Positions 36,758-50,860 of a stretch of 64,000 bases of DNA are shown piece after piece. Position 1 is the first letter of the stretch. Each line of letters starts with the position of its first letter. The position numbers and the translations under genes are program-made. Source of the stretch: Peptococcaceae bacterium BICA1-7 (GTDB taxonomy: Bacteria; Bacillota; Desulfotomaculia; Desulfotomaculales; Desulfocucumaceae); the NCBI GenBank assembly GCA_000802095.1, contig JUEB01000011.1:124001-188000 (forward strand), read 5' to 3'. The notes under the pieces were generated by a model. It did no database searches and was not told the DNA's origin. It saw nothing but the letters and a program-made list of their open reading frames with translations.

Positions 36758-37195
36758 GTGGCAAACGCAGCCCCAAAAGAAGCTACTTATAAGGAGTATT
36801 TTCGCTCCCACAATATAGTAATACGGGACTATTTTATAAAAATAAATCATATCTCCGCTTCTCCTGCAAAGCAAAACGACCTATACAACCAGATGCTGAA
36901 AGCCTGCCTGCAAATGGGCGGTCAAATGATGCAGAATTGCCCGATGCTGAACGGCAGCAACATGACCCCGGAACAAATGATCAAGATCTGCCAGCAGATG
37001 AACGGGCAAATGATGAACATGAGCCAGCAGGATATAACAGCTATGCAACAGGTTTGCCAACAGTATTACCAGCAGGGACAGAAGAGTTCCTGGAACACCC
37101 AAAGTTCCAAAGCTAATACTAAAAACAACGAAAACAGTTGGGAGCATGGAAATATGTCCGGAAACTGGTCAAACATGGAACGCAATGACTGGTAA
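36758..37195 (+). CDS. Met/Gln-rich protein of unknown function
   Basis: 145 residues, GTG start, with AGGAG rather far (about 13 bases) upstream. The central half is very rich in Met, Gln and Cys (LQMGGQMMQNCPMLNG, MIKICQQMNGQMMNMSQ, AMQQVCQQYYQQGQK). The tail is Asn/Ser/Trp-rich. No clear signal peptide is seen, so the N-terminus may be mis-set. The composition resembles Cu(I)/Ag(I)-binding proteins, and copA lies 1.5 kb downstream. Family not recognised. Confidence 0.6.
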   Translation: MANAAPKEATYKEYFRSHNIVIRDYFIKINHISASPAKQNDLYNQMLKACLQMGGQMMQNCPMLNGSNMTPEQMIKICQQMNGQMMNMSQQDITAMQQVCQQYYQQGQKSSWNTQSSKANTKNNENSWEHGNMSGNWSNMERNDW

Positions 37196-37564: not shown

Positions 37565-37927
37565 TTAATTGTTTCCCCAGTTCATCATTCCGCCGAATCC
37601 GTTATTGAAGTTTCCCATCATACCGTTTCCGGGCCCCATCATCCCATATCCGCCCATCATTGAACCCATCATCCCGAAACCGTTTTGGCTGTGGAAGTCA
37701 CGCATGTAGTTGAAGTGTTCCTGCCAGGCTTTGGCCTGCTCCGGAGTAATCTGCCCGTCTTTCTGGGCCTGGTCAAGCCATTGCTGGTGCCAGTCAAACA
37801 TTTGGTTGAAGAACTGCTGGTTCTGGGCGCCCTGGCCGTTACCTGCTACTGCCCCGAATGCCGCCGGAGCTGCCAGGGCCACCACAAGAATACCCGCTGC
37901 TACCAGAAGCCATAGTCTTTTTTTCAT
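37565..37927 (-). CDS. Secreted DUF2680-like, Met/Gly-rich protein
   Basis: 120 residues. The signal peptide covers about 1-26 (LWLLVAAGILVVALAAPAAF). The DUF2680-type helical part is QQFFNQMFDWHQQWLDQAQK with GQITPEQAKAWQEHFNYMRD. The Gly/Met/Asn-rich tail (GMMGSMMGGYGMMGPG) could bind copper or another soft metal. A paralogue sits at 47166-47459. Eleven-base-spaced operator repeats lie just upstream (37978-38035). Confidence 0.82.
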   Translation of the reverse strand: MKKRLWLLVAAGILVVALAAPAAFGAVAGNGQGAQNQQFFNQMFDWHQQWLDQAQKDGQITPEQAKAWQEHFNYMRDFHSQNGFGMMGSMMGGYGMMGPGNGMMGNFNNGFGGMMNWGNN

Positions 37928-37977: not shown

Positions 37978-38035
37978 ACAAGATTTCACAACCCCGTTAC
38001 GAAAGTTTAACAAATTTATCACAATACCTTTTAAA
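37978..38035 (-). promoter_or_regulatory. Four 11-bp direct repeats (PhoP/OmpR-type operator)
   Basis: On the minus strand: TGTGATAAATT, TGTTAAACTTT, CGTAACGGGGT, TGTGAAATCTT in exact 11-base steps. Read from the other strand the core is TTNACA-like. The same pattern lies before the genes at 47459 and 47932. Confidence 0.65.
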
Positions 38036-38133: not shown

Positions 38134-38583
38134 ATGAAAAAATGGTGGTGGGCTGTGGCGCTGGGTACACTGGTGCTGGGGTTTATTGCGGGTTCCTTTA
38201 TAGGACCGGGTTTCTGGACGGGCCGGGGTGGATATGCCAAGCCGTTGGCGTCGGATTACGGGACTTCACACAGCAATAGCCAAATGATGAATTACATGCA
38301 CAATCAAGAAAACTGGAATGATATGGCGAGTATTATGAGTTCTTCGGAAAACCGCCAGGCCATGATTAATATGATGCAGCAGCCTGAGATGAGAAAAGCC
38401 ATGGTTGACATGATGCAGGACGGCACAATGAGGCAGGCCATGGCCGATATAATGTCGGTCCCTAAAGCAAGGAAAGCCTTTGTGGATATGATGGCCATGC
38501 CCCAGATGAGCGTGGTTATTCAGGATATGGCAAAGGATACAAGGGTGCGCACTGAAATGGAAAGGCAAATTCAGAAAAGATAA
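38134..38583 (+). CDS. Membrane-anchored protein of 13-residue Met-rich repeats
   Basis: 149 residues. One N-terminal helix ([20 protein letters not shown]) anchors or exports it. From about residue 65 it is built of 13-residue units: [78 protein letters not shown]. The start ATG at 38134 has AGGTG upstream; the frame extends further 5' without support. It ends 20 nt before copA in one operon, which suggests an extracytoplasmic Cu(I)/Ag(I) role. The repeat style also recalls the spore protein GerD. Confidence 0.8.
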
Positions 38584-38603
38584 GAGAATTGGAGGATAAG
38601 ACC

Positions 38604-41108
38604 TTGTCCGATATAAAAAAAACCTCTTTTAAAATTACCGGAATGAGCTGTGCGGCCTGCGCCAACAGGGTGGAAAAAGCCTTATCCTCACTGCCGGGGG
38701 TGCGGTCGGCCAGGGTCAACTTTGCCCTTGAGAACGCTGCTGTTGAGTATAGGCCGGACCAGGTTTCGATAAATGAAATTCAAAAGCGGGTGGAAGAAAC
38801 AGGCTACGGCATTTTTTTCAGCAAGGCCGAGCTGAAGCTTGACGGAATGAGCTGCGCCGCCTGCGCGGCAAGAATAGAAAAGGCTCTCAATTCGCTGCCC
38901 GGCGTGATTAAGGCCGGTGTTAACTTTGCTACTGAAAAGGCCGTGGTGAATTACGATGAAAGCAGAATTTCCCTTTCCGAAATAAAAAAAGCTGTTTCCG
39001 ATGCCGGGTACGGGGCAACCGGGGCAGAGGGCTCCACGGTTGAAATGGAACAGCAGGAAAGGGAAAGAGAGATCTCCCGCCAGAAAAGGACGGTAATTAT
39101 ATCCGGAATACTGTCCGCTCCGCTGCTGGTATATATGCTGAGCATGGTGTTCGGGCTGCATGACGTGGTTCCCGGCCTTTTCTACAACCCCTACTTTCAG
39201 TTTGCCCTGGCCACACCCGTGCAGTTCTGGGCAGGCTGGAGCTTCTACCGGGAAGCCTATATCGCCCTAAAGGGCCGAAGCGCCAACATGTCCGTGCTGG
39301 TTGCCCTGGGAACCAGCGCCGCCTATTTTTACAGCGTGGGAGCCACCTTTTTCCCGGCGCGCCTGGGACGCGCCGAGGTTTATTACGAGGTGGGGGCGAT
39401 AATAATTACCCTGGTGCTTCTGGGTAAAACCCTTGAAACAATAGCAAAGGGGAGGACCACCGAGGCCATTAAAAAGCTGCTGGGCCTGCAGGCCAAAACC
39501 GCCAGGGTGGTGCGCGAAGGACAGGAGCTGGAAATACCGGTGGAGGAAGTCGTGGCCGGCGACCTGGTGGTGGTGCGCCCCGGAGAGAAAATACCTGTTG
39601 ACGGCGTTGTGCGTGAAGGATATTCGGCTGTTGACGAGTCCATGCTGACCGGGGAGAGCATACCGGTGGATAAAAAGGCGGGAGACGAGGTTATCGGGGC
39701 GACCATCAACAAGCTGGGCACTTTTAAGTTTGAAGCCACCAAGGTGGGCAGGGACACCGCCCTGGCGCAGATAATCCGCATAGTGGAGGAAGCCCAGGGG
39801 TCCAAGGCCCCCATTCAGCGCATGGCCGACGTCATATCGGGTTATTTTGTGCCTGCCGTGCTGTTGATAGCGGTTTCCGCTTTCTTATTCTGGTATTATA
39901 TAAGGCTGCCGGGAGATTTTACCCGGGCGCTGATTAATTTTACCGCCGTTCTGGTCATTGCCTGCCCGTGCGCGCTGGGCCTGGCCACTCCCACATCAAT
40001 TATGGTGGGCACCGGCAAGGGCGCTGAAAAAGGGATTCTGATAAAAAGCGGTGAGTACCTGGAGAAGGCTCACAGCCTGACGGCGCTGGTTTTGGATAAG
40101 ACCGGCACCATAACCAAGGGTGAACCCGATCTGACCGACCTTATCGGAGTTGGAGAATACGAGGGAAAAAACAGCTTGCTGCTGCAGCTGGCCGGCAGGG
40201 CTGAAAAGAACTCCGAACACCCCTTGGCCCAGGCTGTATATAAAAAAGCTCTGGCCGAAACCGGAAAGCTGAATGATCCTGAAGAATTTGAAGCTATCCC
40301 GGGACACGGCGTTAATGCGGTGGTGGAGGGGAAAAAACTTCTGCTGGGGACGCGGAAGCTGATGAAGGACAACCAGGTTGAGTTTGAAAGTGTTCTTGGT
40401 ATTATTGAAGAAATGGAGGACAGGGGTAAAACCGCGGTGTTAATGGCCATTGACGGGAAAATGGCCGGAGTCGCTGGGGTGGCCGACACTGTGAAAGAAA
40501 CTTCGGCTGAGGCCATTAAGGCTCTTAAAAGACTGGGCATTGAAGTCTGGATGATTACCGGAGACAATAGGCGAACCGCCGGCGCCATTGCCCGCCAGGT
40601 GGGAATTGATAACGTTATGGCGGAAGTTTTGCCCGAGGACAAGGCTCAGCAGGTGCAGAAGCTCAGACAGCAGGGAAAGGTGGTAGGCATGGTGGGAGAC
40701 GGGATAAATGACGCTCCCGCCCTGGTTACCGCGGACGTTGGCTTCGCGGTGGGCACCGGTACCGACGTGGCCATAGAGGCGGCGGACATAACACTGATGC
40801 GGGGTGATCTGAGGGGCATCGTGGCCAGTATTGATTTGAGCCGGGCCACAATTCGCAACATTAAGCAAAACCTCTTTTGGGCGCTGGTTTACAATACACT
40901 TGGCATCCCCATAGCGGCGGCAGGGCTGCTGAATCCGGTTATTGCCGGCGCGGCCATGGCTTTCAGCTCTGTTTCCGTCGTAACCAATGCCCTCAGGCTT
41001 AAGAGATTCAACCCATACCGGTATTTTGACGAAAAAGTAAAAGACAAAGAAAGAGTATCCCAACGTATGCTGCCGCTGCCGGCCTGGAAGATAAAAGAAA
41101 AGCCCTGA
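38604..41108 (+). CDS. copA: Cu+-exporting P-type ATPase CopA
   Basis: P1B-1 ATPase of about 834 residues. Two N-terminal HMA domains carry [15 protein letters not shown] and [15 protein letters not shown]. Eight membrane helices follow, with the ion-site motif [11 protein letters not shown], phosphorylation motif [12 protein letters not shown] loop ([11 protein letters not shown]), HP motif (SEHPLAQAV) and hinge GDGINDAPA. The TTG at 38604 has GGAGG eight bases upstream; a TTG at 38589 overlaps that site. Co-transcribed with the Met-rich repeat gene. Exports Cu+ (or Ag+) from the cytosol. Confidence 0.97.
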
Positions 41109-44921: not shown

Positions 44922-45377
44922 TTATTTGTTCATAATCTGTTGCAGCATGGGCTTGATTCTCTGGTCCTGCATCATTGCCTGAAGGGTTTCCTTCATGGCG
45001 GGGTCGGCCATAATGTTTACCATTGTCTCCCTCATAGCCGGGTCGGACATTATTTTCACCATGTCGCCCATTGTTTCCTTGGAGCTCATAATACTCACCA
45101 TAGATTTTTGCATTTCCGGGGTGTGCATCATATTCATCATGGCCGGCTGCATCTGCTGAGAGCTCATTATTTTAGTCATGGAGCCCCTGGTGTCCTGGGA
45201 ACTCATAACATTGGCCATTTCCCCGGGGTTACCGTTAATCATCTGTGTTATGTCACCGGTGTTCATCATCTGGTGATTTTGGGGCTGGTTCTGTGCCTGG
45301 TTCTTCGAGGAGGAACATCCCGCCGCTACCAGAACTACAGCCAGAACAACTGCCAATACCAATACTACTCTTTTCAC
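44922..45377 (-). CDS. Lipoprotein of 13-residue Met-rich repeats
   Basis: 151 residues. Lipobox LVAAGC near residue 21, then a Gln/Asn linker. From about residue 54 come 13-residue units: MANVMSSQDTRGS, MTKIMSSQQMQPA, MMNMMHTPEMQKS, MVSIMSSKETMGD, MVKIMSDPAMRET, MVNIMADPAMKET, LQAMMQDQRIKPM. It is the same repeat type as at 38134-38583. Anchored outside the membrane next to the polyferredoxin gene. Soft-metal binding is an inference from Met density. A GerD-like rope structure is an alternative. Confidence 0.82.
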   Translation of the reverse strand: MKRVVLVLAVVLAVVLVAAGCSSSKNQAQNQPQNHQMMNTGDITQMINGNPGEMANVMSSQDTRGSMTKIMSSQQMQPAMMNMMHTPEMQKSMVSIMSSKETMGDMVKIMSDPAMRETMVNIMADPAMKETLQAMMQDQRIKPMLQQIMNK

Positions 45378-45417: not shown

Positions 45418-46743
45418 CTACATCCTCATGCTCATTGGCAGAGTAAACAGATACAAGTTCAACGCAGCAAGAATTACCAGTAAAGCTGCATAGGGAAGGA
45501 ATGACGAGGTGTTTTTAAAGTTGCTCTTGCTGATTCTGTAGGCAGTATAAATTGACGCGGCCAATCCCATTGCGATCAATACAAACTGCATTACTTGAAT
45601 TATTTCGTTAGAGACCAGGGCGGGAGATCCGCCTTCAAAGCCTGGTATGATGAGAGAAATCCCGGTGTACAGCACTGATTTTCCTTCCGCCAGCAGGTGG
45701 AAAAGGTTGTGCGCCAGGTGGCCTGCCAGGTCCAGGGGAATCAGCGCGTATCCGAATCTGGCAAAGTTTGATATGGCGCTCTCTTTATTAAACAGCCCTG
45801 CCAGCATACCGGTCAGGTACAGCGCCAGCACCGGAACGGTCATGGCGATAATAAAGGTAATGGTAAAGGTAACGGTATAGCTTGTTGTGCCGGTAACACC
45901 TTCAATAAACCGCTGGGCATCCTGCCAGATCTCAAGCATGGTGATGTTTTGCACGAAAACAATACCCATGATTATTATGGCGAGGAAAGATTCTTCTATC
46001 CTTGGTTTTCTGATAAACCAGAGTTCTTTTGAAGGCACCCGGGCTGTTAATGTTACAGAATCGTTTTGGCATACTTTTACGCAGTTTCCGCACAGGTTGC
46101 ATTTGGCGCTGGAGTCCATCTGTCCGGGCAGCTCAAACATGGGACAGCCCGGAACGCCGTCTTTCCCTTTATAGCAGTATTTATCCCTGCAGGCGCTGCA
46201 CTTATCACTGTCAGCCCGCAGCTCGAAGGCGCCTGCCCGTGAGTAGTTGCCTGCCAATCCTCCGAGAAAGCACAGGTACCTGCACCACGTCCTGCGCTCG
46301 AAAAAGGCGCCGGAAAAAACCACCCCGGTAATAATCAGCAGCAGCAGAACTCCTGAGCCAAAAGGAGATTCCACTATGCCGAAAACATGGTCGGCCCAGG
46401 TGATCAGTATAAACATGGCGTCAATAATCCAAATCCCGTATTTCTTTAAAAAGACGGGGACCGGACGCCTAAGGCCTACCCATCTCTGCACAAAGTCGCT
46501 TAAGGTAGCAAAGGGGCAAATGGCGCACCAAAATCTTCCCAGCAACAAGAAAATAAGGGGAATGATAGGCCACCAGAGCACCCAGGTCATGGCAGTGCCA
46601 AAATTGACATGGGCGGAGGCCGGCCCGTACAGGAGCTGGTAAACAACTACTGCGAATATGAAGGCGGTGGGCCACTGTAATAGGCCGGGAAACCACTGGC
46701 TTTTGAATATATTTTTTATTGGTTTCAAATTCAGGAGGTTCAA
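45418..46743 (-). CDS. Membrane polyferredoxin (NapH/NosR/CcoG-like)
   Basis: 441 residues with about nine membrane helices. Fer4_5-type membrane motifs RFWCAICPFATLSDF and WCRYLCFLGGLAGNYSRAG lie near residues 88 and 173. A cytosolic or peripheral ferredoxin region follows, with CSACRDKYCYKGKDGVPGC and CNLCGNCVKVC (about 200-250). It may move electrons across the membrane to reduce an envelope partner. It overlaps by four bases with the His/Met-rich gene upstream, so they are one operon. Substrate unknown; copper reduction or assembly is a guess from context. Confidence 0.82.
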   Translation of the reverse strand: MNLLNLKPIKNIFKSQWFPGLLQWPTAFIFAVVVYQLLYGPASAHVNFGTAMTWVLWWPIIPLIFLLLGRFWCAICPFATLSDFVQRWVGLRRPVPVFLKKYGIWIIDAMFILITWADHVFGIVESPFGSGVLLLLIITGVVFSGAFFERRTWCRYLCFLGGLAGNYSRAGAFELRADSDKCSACRDKYCYKGKDGVPGCPMFELPGQMDSSAKCNLCGNCVKVCQNDSVTLTARVPSKELWFIRKPRIEESFLAIIIMGIVFVQNITMLEIWQDAQRFIEGVTGTTSYTVTFTITFIIAMTVPVLALYLTGMLAGLFNKESAISNFARFGYALIPLDLAGHLAHNLFHLLAEGKSVLYTGISLIIPGFEGGSPALVSNEIIQVMQFVLIAMGLAASIYTAYRISKSNFKNTSSFLPYAALLVILAALNLYLFTLPMSMRM

Positions 46744-47138
46744 CCTGTTACCCCCCTTTGCAGCTTGTTTTTCATGTATAATGCGATGCCGATAATCAGG
46801 GCATTAATCCCTGCAAAGCCCCCCACCAGAAGGTTCTTCACCGGGTTAGGCTCCCCTGTGCCGGAATCTCCATGGCCTCCGCCCTGTTCTCCGTGACCTG
46901 AGCTGTCCTGAGAGTTACTGACCGAGCCTGCCTGATCATGTCCGCCCTGACCGGATCCCTGACTCATATCCATACCGGGCGTATCCATATTGGCCATATC
47001 TTCCTCTTGTGTTTGGCTGTTGCCGGCCGGCGAACCGTCATGACCGGTATGTTCGCTCGCCGCCAAAGAGTATCCGGATATGCTGAAAATAAGTGCAAAT
47101 AGTGCTATTAATGTTATGGTAAATCTCCTGGCGACCAT
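46740..47138 (-). CDS. His/Met-rich secreted membrane protein
   Basis: 132 residues. Signal peptide about 1-27; a low-complexity His/Met/Gly/Ser region about 28-100 (HTGHDG, MANMDTPGMDMSQG, SGHGEQGGGHGDSG); one C-terminal helix about 104-124 (LLVGGFAGINALIIGIALYM). The middle is a plausible metal-binding stretch outside the membrane. Translationally coupled to the polyferredoxin gene. No family recognised. Confidence 0.75.
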   Translation of the reverse strand: MVARRFTITLIALFALIFSISGYSLAASEHTGHDGSPAGNSQTQEEDMANMDTPGMDMSQGSGQGGHDQAGSVSNSQDSSGHGEQGGGHGDSGTGEPNPVKNLLVGGFAGINALIIGIALYMKNKLQRGVTG

Positions 47139-47165: not shown

Positions 47166-47459
47166 TTATTCAGCGCTATTGGGCTGGTTGTTGTTTGTGA
47201 ATCCACCCATCATGCCCGGGCCGGGGCAGCCAAAGCCGTTGGTTTCGTGGAATTTCTGCATTTGATCAAAATGATTGTTCCAGGCCTGTCCCTGTTCCGG
47301 AGTCAGCTGTTTGTTTTCAACTGCCTGGTTGACCCACTGTTTGTGCGCGCTGAACATTTGGTTAAAAAAGTCCTGATTATCGGTGGCGGCATACGCTACA
47401 GATATGGTTATCATCAGTAAAAGAACTGCCACCATTACCACTGCCAGCTTCCTTTTCAT
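47166..47459 (-). CDS. Secreted DUF2680-like protein, paralogue
   Basis: 97 residues from MKRKLAVVMVAVLLLMITIS (signal peptide to about residue 24). Then QDFFNQMFSAHKQWVNQAVE, LTPEQGQAWNNHFDQMQKFH and a short GCPGPGMMGG tail with one Cys. It aligns along its length with the protein at 37565-37927. The ATG at 47459 has GGAGGG upstream. First gene of the run to the His/Met protein and polyferredoxin; the same operator type precedes it. Confidence 0.82.
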   Translation of the reverse strand: MKRKLAVVMVAVLLLMITISVAYAATDNQDFFNQMFSAHKQWVNQAVENKQLTPEQGQAWNNHFDQMQKFHETNGFGCPGPGMMGGFTNNNQPNSAE

Positions 47460-47507
47460 GATTTTCCCTCCTTTCTTTTGCACTCTATACTCATTCTAAG
47501 GAACAAA

Positions 47508-47555
47508 TCTCACAGAAATGTCCCGAAAATGTCACATTTTTTTAACAAATAATCT
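47508..47555 (-). promoter_or_regulatory. Four 11-bp direct repeats (same operator type)
   Basis: On the minus strand: TGTTAAAAAAA, TGTGACATTTT, CGGGACATTTC, TGTGAGATTTG in 11-base steps. It shares AAAAATGTGACA with the site near 48.0 kb. Confidence 0.65.
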
Positions 47556-47722: not shown

Positions 47723-47932
47723 CTATGATATTTTTTCCGATATTTCTCCTCTGGCATAGCGTTCTTTAATGCTAGAGACAGGGTCGGGACCGTCGGTGAC
47801 TTCTTTCTTCCTATATCTGTTCCACAGTCCAGTGCCCAAAGATATAGCAAGAATAATAACTATCACAGGAATAAGCATGTGTAGCAGCATCCAGATACCC
47901 CAGTAAAAACCCCCGAATAATCCTCCGAACAT
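47723..47932 (-). CDS. Small SHOCT-domain membrane protein
   Basis: 69 residues. One membrane helix (about 10-33, MLLHMLIPVIVIILAISLG) and a C-terminal SHOCT-like motif SSIKERYARGEISEKIS. Such proteins are common beside copper and envelope-stress genes. GGAGGA precedes the start ATG. It has its own copy of the 11-bp-repeat operator and is followed by about 200 nt without a gene. Confidence 0.82.
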   Translation of the reverse strand: MFGGLFGGFYWGIWMLLHMLIPVIVIILAISLGTGLWNRYRKKEVTDGPDPVSSIKERYARGEISEKIS

Positions 47933-47971: not shown

Positions 47972-48024
47972 AAACAGATTTTACAAACCTTTAACGGTTA
48001 TATTACAAAACTGTCACATTTTTA
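47972..48024 (-). promoter_or_regulatory. 11-bp direct repeats (same operator type)
   Basis: On the minus strand: TGTGACAGTTT, TGTAATATAAC, CGTTAAAGGTT, TGTAAAATCTG, in 11-base steps (the first step is 10-11). It lies between the histidine kinase gene and the SHOCT gene it would control. Confidence 0.65.
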
Positions 48025-48062: not shown

Positions 48063-49523
48063 TTACCTCGGGGCTGTTCCTGTGCTTAGCGTAAAGGAAA
48101 AGGTCGTTCCTTTACCAGGAGTGCTTTCCACGTATATCCGACCGCCCATGTTTTCAGCCAGCCGTTTGACTATGGCCAGTCCCAGCCCCGTTCCGCCGCC
48201 TTCTCTTCTGGTCCTGGACTTGTCAGCTTTATAGAACTTTTCCCAGATAAACTCCCGTTCGTCCTCTGGTATGCCGGGGCCGCTGTCTATCACGCTTATT
48301 TTAACAAAGCCGTTGAGCACAACAGTATTCATCCGGATACTCCCACCTGTTGGGGTATATCTTACTGCATTTTCCAAAAGGTTAAACAGTATCTGCTGCA
48401 GACGATCCGGATTTGCCAGTACAGGGGGGATATTTTCAGGAATATCCAGGTCAAGCGCAATTTCTTTTTGTTCAATAAAGACTCCCATTTTTTCTGCCGC
48501 TTTTATTAAAACAGGGGCTATATCAAATACAGAAAGCTCAATATTTTCCTGCCCGGACTCCATTCTCCTCAAATCCAGCAGGTCAAAAACCAGTCTTTTT
48601 AACCGGCCTGCCTCCTCAACAATTCCATCTATACAGTCCCGGCGGTCTTCTTCACTTTCCGCCACATTGTCCTTCAGAGCTTCCGCATATCCCTGGATAA
48701 TGGTCAGCGGTGTCCTTAATTCGTGTGAGATTCCCGCCACAAAATCCTTCCTGGTTTGATCCAGCCTCTCCAGGGTAGCTATTTTTTCCTGCAAATCACC
48801 CGATAAAGTGTTAAGCGAATCAGCAAGGACTCCTATTTCATCTTCGGATTTTACGGCCACCTTCCTGCTGAAATCCCCCCTGGCCAGGGCCCGGGCCACT
48901 TTATTCATTTGTACCAGGGGACGGGACAAAGAACGTGAGAAGGCCAGACTCAGGAATGTAGCCAGAATAATGCCCCCTATGCCTACGTTAAGTATGATCC
49001 TCTGGTACTCAGAAATCTGTCCTTCAATAGCGGCTATGGAACTGCTTACAATTACAGCGCCAGTGGTACGACCCCCGTTTATGACCGGCACCAGGGCAGA
49101 CAAGACCTCTGCTCCGATGATTTCATTTCTGCCGCTCTTTAATACTCTTTCTCCGGCTAATACCTTTTTTAAATCATCCATGGTAATCAAGTCACCATGA
49201 TGTTCCAGAATGCTGATTTTGGTTAAACTCATGTTCATGCCCATCCCGTGACATTCCAGTATATAACCGTCCCGATCCACCAGCATAATGTTTGTGTCGG
49301 TCAGCTCGGAAATAAGACTTATTTTATCCCGGGCATTTTCTTCATTGCTCAAGGCGCCGGCAACCTCGTTCCCCTGACGGAGAATGCTATCCGTTTGCAG
49401 TTTATAGTAAACTTTTTTTATTATATTTGACTGAACCATGCCGGTGGTCCAGGTAATTATCAGCACAAGAATCACAATAGCCAGCCATAGTTTGGCCATA
49501 ATGCTTTTTTTAAAAAACCTCAT
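48063..49523 (-). CDS. Membrane sensor histidine kinase with Cys/His/Met-rich sensor loop
   Basis: 486 residues. Helices about 10-30 and 177-197 flank an extracytoplasmic domain (about 31-176) containing CHGMGMNM at 91-98, a soft-metal-like cluster. HAMP (RSLSRPLVQMNKVARALARG), H-box ISHELRTPLTIIQGYAEA, N-box NLLENAVRYTPTGG, G1/G2 boxes (DSGPGIPEDE, GGGTGLGLAIVKRL) are intact. It overlaps the end of a response regulator gene that is now broken. A WalK/PhoR/CssS-like kinase; copper sensing is inferred only from the motif and neighbours. Confidence 0.92.
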   Translation of the reverse strand: MRFFKKSIMAKLWLAIVILVLIITWTTGMVQSNIIKKVYYKLQTDSILRQGNEVAGALSNEENARDKISLISELTDTNIMLVDRDGYILECHGMGMNMSLTKISILEHHGDLITMDDLKKVLAGERVLKSGRNEIIGAEVLSALVPVINGGRTTGAVIVSSSIAAIEGQISEYQRIILNVGIGGIILATFLSLAFSRSLSRPLVQMNKVARALARGDFSRKVAVKSEDEIGVLADSLNTLSGDLQEKIATLERLDQTRKDFVAGISHELRTPLTIIQGYAEALKDNVAESEEDRRDCIDGIVEEAGRLKRLVFDLLDLRRMESGQENIELSVFDIAPVLIKAAEKMGVFIEQKEIALDLDIPENIPPVLANPDRLQQILFNLLENAVRYTPTGGSIRMNTVVLNGFVKISVIDSGPGIPEDEREFIWEKFYKADKSRTRREGGGTGLGLAIVKRLAENMGGRIYVESTPGKGTTFSFTLSTGTAPR

Positions 49524-50150
49524 TCCACCACCTCAAATTTATAGCCGACTCCCCACACGGTCCTGATTATGTCCGGACATCCTGGCACTTTATTTAACTT
49601 GTCTCTGAGTCTATTGATATGGGTGTCCACCGTCCTGGTATCGCCGTAATAATCAAACCCCCAAACCTCCTGCAGCAGTTCATCTCTTGTGTATGCCCTG
49701 CCGGGATGCCTGCTCATAAAGTATATAAGATCAAATTCTTTTACAGTAAGGGAAACAGGCTGCCCGCAAACAGTAACGCTTCGTGTTTCTGTATTTATTT
49801 CCACTGATACTTTAGTGCCGTCATTTTATTTTCTTTGTTTTCCACATTGTCCTGGCTCTGGGCTGTGCGGCGCAGCACTGCTTTGACCCTGGCCAGGAGT
49901 TCCCGTGGGCTGAAAGGCTTCACAACATAATCGTCCGCGCCCATCTAAGTCCGACGATTCTGTCCACTTCATCACCTTTAGCCGTAAGCATATTATAGGG
50001 ACGGATGATCTGGCCCGCACCTCGCGGCAAACGGTCCAGCCGTTGATTTCCGGCATCATTATATCTAAGATAATCAGATCAAATTTTTCAGCCTTCATTT
50101 TCTCAAGAGCCTGTTTATAATGCCCCCCGTTGTCAAGACACGGAAAATAT
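49520..50150 (-). pseudogene. OmpR/PhoP-type response regulator, broken
   Basis: The C-terminal winged helix is intact (SLTVKEFDLIYFMSRHPGRA to VWGVGYKFEVVE). The receiver piece KAEKFDLIILDIMMPEINGW then VCREVRARSSVPII is in another frame. One-base losses appear near 49995 (ATAATATGCTT for ATAATTATGCTT) and near 49947 (CTTAGATGGGC for CTTGAGATGGGC). The first 40 or so residues, with the acidic pocket, are missing, replaced by DNA next to an IS3 remnant. It would pair with the overlapping histidine kinase gene. At most a DNA-binding fragment could be made. Confidence 0.88.
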
Positions 50151-50164
50151 TTTGTAAGTTATCC

Positions 50165-50860
50165 TCCTTTCCGTGTTTTGTATGTTCAAGCAGCTTGATG
50201 ATGCTTGCCATCATAGACTTGGGACGGGCATTGACCTCCAATGGAAGAATGGGGACGATAGGTATTGTACTCATGAATATATTGGTTCAAAGCAATTCTC
50301 AGCTCCCGGGGGCTATTGAATTCATTGATGTATACGCAATCACATTTCAGAGTCCGGAAAAACCGTTCAGTTCTAACATTATCCAGGGCTTGACCCTTGC
50401 CATCCATAGAGATTTTAACAGTATAGGACTCTAACAGATTAAGATAGTCAGGATTGGTAAAATGACAACCTTGATCACTGTTGATGATCTCCGGACGGCG
50501 GTGGTTCAAGGCCCGTTTCAGGCAGTTTAATACAAAGGATTTATCCAAGGTGCTGGACAGTTCAAAATCCACGATGCACCGCTGTACCAGTCGATAATTA
50601 CAAACAGATACATGAAGCCTTTTTCCATTCGAATATATGTAATATCTACGCCCCAGACCTGGTCTGGATGGTCAATGGTCAGGTTCCTCAGTAGATAAGG
50701 CCGAACATACTGGGCGTGAAACCGCTTACTTAGATTGGGTTTAGGATAAATGGTGTAAATCCCCATCTCTCGCATCATTCGGCGTACTTTTTTCCTGTTA
50801 ATCAGTAGATAATCATCCCGTCTCAGAATCCGTGTGATGGTTCGATAACCCCAGGTGGGG
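50165..50860 (-). mobile_element. IS3-family transposase OrfB remnant
   Basis: Frames TWGYRTITRILRRDDYLLIN, then RKKVRRMMREMGIYTIYPKP and HPDQVWGVDITYIRMEKGFM (first DDE Asp) are followed after a frameshift near 50570 by IINSDQGCHFTNPDYLNLLE (second Asp) and QALDNVRTERFFRTLKCDCV (Glu), ending HSSIGGQCPSQVYDG. The 5' orfA part is absent and no clear terminal repeats were identified. Inactive. Confidence 0.9.

Follow-up and report, generated by a model that had tools for sequence, protein, structure and literature searches.

The window, by which we mean the whole 64,000-nucleotide stretch of DNA from Peptococcaceae bacterium BICA1-7 that was analyzed here, encodes two small proteins, P1 and P2, that share a Met-rich tandem repeat of 13 residues. 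P1 (38134-38583, plus strand) is a 149-aa protein, translated from an ATG start and with relatives in other families, whose N terminus has the sequence of a membrane anchor helix, without a lipobox. Its array of six in-register units covers residues 64-141 (38323-38556) and is preceded by a looser 13-residue unit. P2 (44922-45377, minus strand) is a 151-aa lipoprotein with a GTG start and the lipobox VAAGC, and its array comprises seven in-register units spanning residues 54-144 (44946-45218). By autocorrelation, identity at lag 13 lies 6.5 sd above that of shuffled sequences in P1 and 10.0 sd above it in P2, with corresponding values of 6.1 and 6.0 sd at lag 26 and far weaker signals at the remaining lags. 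Within the units, Met makes up 0.65 (P1) and 0.69 (P2) of all M+I+L+V+F residues, against 0.08 in the ORFs of the window, an excess with binomial P values of ~1e-13 and ~1e-15 when a background of 10% is assumed.

Both arrays had been noticed in a first-pass annotation of this DNA, and its six successive P1 units in register, as well as the seven units and lipoprotein anchor of the second protein, stand on the lag-13 scores and the lipobox. The interval that it gave for the first protein, 38320-38583, begins roughly a codon ahead of the first unit and corresponds to the repeat half of P1 rather than to the full gene. Likewise, its consensus M-x-x-h-M-x-x-P-x-M-R-x-A captures a genuine Met repeat but is followed more loosely in P1, where only three of the six units have Pro at position 8 and, likewise, only three have Met at position 10.

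The stop codon of P1 is separated by 5 bp from the copA ORF (38589-41108, plus strand), which encodes a Cu+-type P1B ATPase with two HMA domains (Pfam E1-E2_ATPase and 2x HMA). This protein scores 614.9 bits against the copper ATPase model TIGR01511 (cut-off 397), and the whole genome encodes just one further ATPase of the CopA type. Divergent from P1 is a gene (37565-37927, minus strand) for a DUF2680-like protein with an MMGG-rich tail, which falls under the Pfam cut-off and resembles the product of 47166-47483 (minus strand), a DUF2680 protein (25.3 bits, cut-off 25) with a Gly-rich, Met-containing tail. A Met/Gln-rich protein without a family (QMGGQMMQNCPMLNG...) is encoded upstream of the cluster, at 36758-37195.

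Directly upstream of P2 lies the gene for a NapH/MauN-like polytopic 4Fe-4S protein (45418-46743, minus strand; Fer4_5, and TIGR02163 at 39.5 bits, under the cut-off), in an operon with that of a small His/Met/Asp-rich membrane protein (46740-47138, minus strand) that was recognized from its sequence and from a relative in locus L026. On the far side of the DUF2680 gene, the same strand encodes a small membrane protein (47723-47932), an ORF that is SHOCT-like by resemblance alone, and a sensor histidine kinase (48063-49523; Pfam HAMP, HisKA and HATPase) with the motif HGMGMNM in its sensor part. Like P1 and P2, the MMGG/SHOCT and DUF2680 proteins of the cluster are Met-rich, extracytoplasmic or membrane-bound, and candidates for the same regulon; unlike P1 and P2, they do not have the 13-residue helical repeat.

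Repeat unit and predicted fold

Unit profiles were built from four sets, namely 72 P2-type units, 89 P1-type units, 71 units of a Met-poor P1 lineage and 32 units of true GerD. One profile is common to all of them, with hydrophobic residues at positions 1, 4, 5 and 10 and a D/S-P turn at positions 7-8. The frequency of Met at positions 1 and 5 is 83% and 92%, respectively, in P2-type units, 58% and 67% in P1-type units, 12% and 44% in GerD, and 8% and 21% in the Met-poor lineage. When nine P1/P2 relatives sharing 29-85% identity are aligned, 10 of the 13 invariant columns are Met. Met thus appears to be conserved in P1/P2 beyond the demands of hydrophobicity, with the proviso that such columns are more readily retained in proteins of Met-rich composition. 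Within the Met-rich set, copper linkage does not depend on the density of Met, the relative adjoining copA in L105 having 1.5 Met per unit. The 13-residue unit also has a sister form, which is rich in Met and His (MHNDPEFQQYHDE).

AlphaFold2 monomer models of P1 and P2 have mean pLDDT values of 74 and 73, with 86-91 across most of the P1 repeats. In both models, each 13-mer forms one helix of ~11 residues, with two-residue turns between consecutive helices, and the helix pattern P-x-M-x-x-x-M-x-x-h-M places Met at i, i+4 and i+8. Together with the unit profile, these predicted helices support the earlier proposal that Met occupies fixed places in a helical repeat. The thioethers had further been envisaged along one face of a helical rod; the helical Met repeat survives in the models, but the continuous rod does not, because each unit is given one short helix, and it is replaced by a spiral of such helices. 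Foldseek searches with the two monomer models returned no match at E below 1, and the best VIA-align Z scores, 5.4 for P2 and 3.5 for P1, correspond to weak, generic helical-repeat matches.

Genes beside the relatives and proposed function

The link to copA, already made in the first-pass annotation, recurs in other families, where a P1 relative is followed directly by copA (L105) or, 3 bp downstream, by copZ (L036). As for P2, its relatives are found with copA remnants (L028), with csoR, copA and lgt in Desulfosporosinus (L047), and with NapH-like, DUF2680 and sensor kinase genes (L030), parts of the P2 gene set of the window recurring in L026, L031 and L098 as well. A search of 72,556 plasmid records yielded a single match, a Metabacillus plasmid on which a P2-type lipoprotein (MVKLMKEPEMQDSMISVMQEPEMQ...) is encoded 0.9 kb from a CopA-type ATPase and close to copZ, a MerR regulator, lgt and merA. 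In L082, a protein of the M/H-rich sister form is encoded with copA on one side and a NapH-like gene on the other, and another 13-mer-type Met-rich protein is encoded near copA and csoR in L089. No relatives were found in viral contigs and phages.

Altogether, CopA or CopZ is a neighbor at 5 of 22 Met-rich loci, which is far above chance since the genome of the window has only two CopA-type ATPases; the corresponding Poisson probability of 1e-5 is rough and based on the copA number of that genome only. Copper genes were absent from the two sets used for comparison: the ten control loci with GerD or a GerD-core gene have no copA, copZ or csoR nearby, and the nine loci of the Met-poor P1 lineage have no copper gene nearby. 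About ten Met-rich loci have no recognizable metal gene nearby, and location in a copper, silver or mercury resistance cluster recurs among the relatives but does not hold for every one.

Three further observations concern these neighborhoods. The Met-poor P1-type proteins (L035, L037, L038, L039, L041, L042 and L102-L104) are larger, belong to one lineage and are encoded beside Peptidase_M15, a DUF5698/DUF2179 protein and a sensor kinase, with an ArsP-type permease and ArsR at several loci. The gene lgt, for prolipoprotein diacylglyceryl transferase, recurs near the lipoprotein in copper/mercury clusters (L047, 6954-7733; L030, 8921-9700; L089, 10718-11497; L113, 5179-6006; L114, 11708-12517). 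The NapH/MauN-like protein accompanies the Met-rich cluster in several lineages, its gene adjoining P2 relatives in L026, L030 and L031, and is linked to copA in L082; one might speculate that it is a cupric reductase.

Because their relatives lie beside copper or mercury resistance genes in many unrelated bacteria, we infer that P1 and P2 are probably not GerD proteins but extracytoplasmic, membrane-tethered thioether sponges that bind and buffer soft metals (Cu+/Ag+, possibly Hg2+). The high frequency of Met in their units, the M/H-rich sister form near copA and a candidate operator that P1 shares with the DUF2680 and SHOCT-like genes (below) also favor this reading. Each 13-residue unit would form one short helix displaying Met at i, i+4 and i+8; stacked as a spiral, the six or seven helices of an array would bear a thioether ladder that provides weak, exchangeable sites for these ions outside the membrane. 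P1 would take up metal exported by the neighboring CopA, and P2 metal arriving from outside, buffering it before it re-enters the cell or damages envelope proteins. A repeat array that is poor in His and free of Cys would give a modest affinity per site, and the Met side chains in the core positions of the GerD unit may merely pack the helices. More tentatively, and with somewhat more doubt than belief, we propose that a widespread, unnamed family under the GerD label, its 13-residue GerD unit converted to a thioether ladder, provides a folded, helical-solenoid store for Cu+/Ag+ outside the membrane, fed by CopA, with a His-decorated sister form in other copper operons.

Gram-positive-type bacteria do not have a classical periplasm, and how Cu+ is held after export by CopA is poorly defined. 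If the sponge reading is true, the tethered Met-ladder protein, its gene immediately preceding copA, would be a direct candidate for the holder of Cu+ outside the membrane, and a spore-germination scaffold unit would have been re-used in metal handling. We found no paper in the open-license literature that joins GerD-like repeats with copper. A silver sponge is known in SilE and its homolog PcoE, which belong to metal resistance operons and bear repeated Met/His on helices (PMC5008109). P1 and P2 resemble them as small extracytoplasmic proteins of metal-resistance loci with putative Met ligands at i, i+3/i+4 on helices, here predicted ones. In contrast to SilE, which is soluble, His-rich, periplasmic and disordered without metal, they are membrane-tethered, nearly His-free and predicted to be folded, and no SilE profile is among their Pfam or NCBIfam matches. 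P1 and P2 most likely represent a SilE-like function on an apparently unrelated, GerD-type scaffold.

The Bacillales relatives bear on the choice of metal. Four genomes of this order have a Met-rich copy that matches the P2/P1 profile at 84-131 bits, leaving a clear gap to the next matches at 43 bits, and we had predicted in advance that these copies would lie beside copper genes. This was clearly so at one locus only (L114, with merA, an HMA protein, lgt, a SHOCT-like protein and a two-component system), and the failure at the other three lowers our confidence in a purely copper reading. Instead, the P2-type gene is divergent from or adjoins CstR-like, TusA, DsrE, rhodanese and rhodanese-metallo-lactamase genes, with the CsoR-family regulator, TusA, DsrE, rhodanese and rhodanese-metallo-lactamase in L115 (7424-11800) and L116, and rhodanese and rhodanese-metallo-lactamase in L117. 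Judged by gene make-up, these appear to be sulfane-sulfur operons of the CstR kind, in which the P2-type lipoprotein would be an undescribed partner.

Since three relatives sit in such operons, the description "copper protein" may by itself be too narrow. The lipoprotein might instead serve sulfane-sulfur/sulfide or general thiol-reactive defense, shielding the envelope from persulfides, polysulfides and soft metals, with copper as one face of that task. A rhodanese gene that flanks the Metabacillus copy, YedF near the copy in L084 and the presence of sulfate reducers in the order to which the window belongs are all consistent with this. However, thioethers have no obvious reaction with persulfides, and across lineages copA, copZ, csoR, mer and copper-type sensors are the more frequent neighbors, which makes this explanation unlikely as a replacement for soft-metal sponges. 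The common factor may be thiophilic envelope stress, of which copper would be the commonest case and not the sole one.

Kinship with GerD and alternative roles for Met

The kinship of the repeats with GerD-like spore proteins, suspected from the start, is real. P1 and P2 have the 13-residue unit of GerD in the same register, with its hydrophobic positions and D/S-P turn, and canonical GerD of Bacilli shows the 13-residue periodicity too (z13 up to 5.8). The GerD core model PF17898 is matched by P2 at 34.7 bits, above the gathering score of 29.5, as it is by several relatives, and narrowly missed by P1 (27.9 bits). A profile of six GerD or GerD-like sequences is matched in profile-profile comparison with a probability of 97.7% and an E of 1.9e-12, the sequence match to the GerD structure 4O8W has an E of 0.002, and P2 shares a lipoprotein anchor with GerD. 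GerD is trimeric in its solved structure (PMC11841064), with a superhelical rope fold in 4O8W; P1 and P2 were modeled as monomers, which do not bear on this point.

The first-pass annotation had also considered clear membership in GerD, and this was not found. Against the GerD equivalog model NF040801, whose cut-off is 100, P1 scores 25.4 bits, P2 35.2 bits and the Metabacillus protein P0003 48.5 bits, all relatives falling between 25 and 48 bits. In the four Bacillales genomes, the Met-rich copy (20-38 bits) coexists with a true GerD encoded elsewhere (207-247 bits). The repeat proteins are patchy in the order of the window, occurring in 24-25 of 113 genomes and missing from one of two congeners tested. 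Since the repeat proteins miss the NF040801 cut-off, coexist with true GerD in Bacillales and occur in this patchy manner, they form a family separate from GerD that has its 13-residue unit. P1 and P2 differ from GerD, moreover, in lacking its conserved N-terminal half, in having Met instead of I/L/V/Y, and in sitting in metal loci. For such proteins, a set with putative roles in metal or sulfur stress, the "GerD family" labels of Pfam and NCBI would thus mislead.

Could P1 and P2 nevertheless act as germination factors, that is, as GerD or GerD-like tethered helical scaffolds for receptor clustering in the spore membrane, with Met serving for core packing? The shared unit and the matches described above speak for it, as do the occurrence of relatives in spore-forming groups and the name "GerD family protein" given by NCBI to the Metabacillus copy. 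Apart from the equivalog scores and the coexistence with true GerD, the gene context argues against it, the neighbors being metal genes and not spore genes; furthermore, neither the genome of the window nor the seven tested genomes of its order yielded a true GerD. We therefore regard a role in germination as quite improbable.

It seems to us very improbable that the proteins are no more than a scaffold, one in which Met fills space flexibly and which keeps a complex of CopA, sensor and NapH-like proteins assembled but binds no metal. GerD kinship suggests an ability of this sort, and the Met-poor lineage has the same repeat with I/L/V, beside other genes, but Met is invariant in P1/P2 where hydrophobicity alone would permit I/L/V, and the M/H-rich sister form adjoins copA. 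Finally, although periplasmic Met-rich antioxidant proteins exist, as described in work on hypochlorite stress, and although Met content is very high and the location extracytoplasmic here too, it is extremely doubtful that P1 and P2 are sacrificial antioxidants whose surface Met would be converted to the sulfoxide and regenerated by methionine sulfoxide reductases, since the single MsrA gene sits on another contig, no msr gene was recognized among the neighbors inspected, and many hosts are anaerobes.

A candidate operator in the cluster

The cluster contains three intergenic copies of a candidate operator, all on the minus strand, that consist of TTGTGAnA-like direct repeats at steps of ~11 bp. 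They are located in the divergent promoter between P1 and the DUF2680-like gene (37980-38024), upstream of the DUF2680 gene 47166-47483 (47504-47548) and upstream of the SHOCT-like gene (47975-48019). The motif was built from these three sites, so their rank within the window proves nothing, and only independent loci count as a test. Candidate sites score above shuffled sequences in L030, where they precede the SHOCT, DUF2680 and P2 genes, and in L098, L100 and L101, where they are intergenic and mostly precede Met-rich genes; among the control loci, L095 likewise has one site above its shuffles.

Direct repeats of 11 bp would suit an OmpR-type regulator such as that encoded in the cluster. 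In the genome of the window, control of the candidate operators is uncertain because the response regulator gene (49520-50098, minus strand) of this copper-type two-component pair, delimited from ORFs and by tblastn with an intact relative, is broken, its first ~36 residues being gone and the receiver out of frame. The regulator is intact in the relatives at L030 and L098, and a transposase fragment (50186-50778) lies beside the broken gene.
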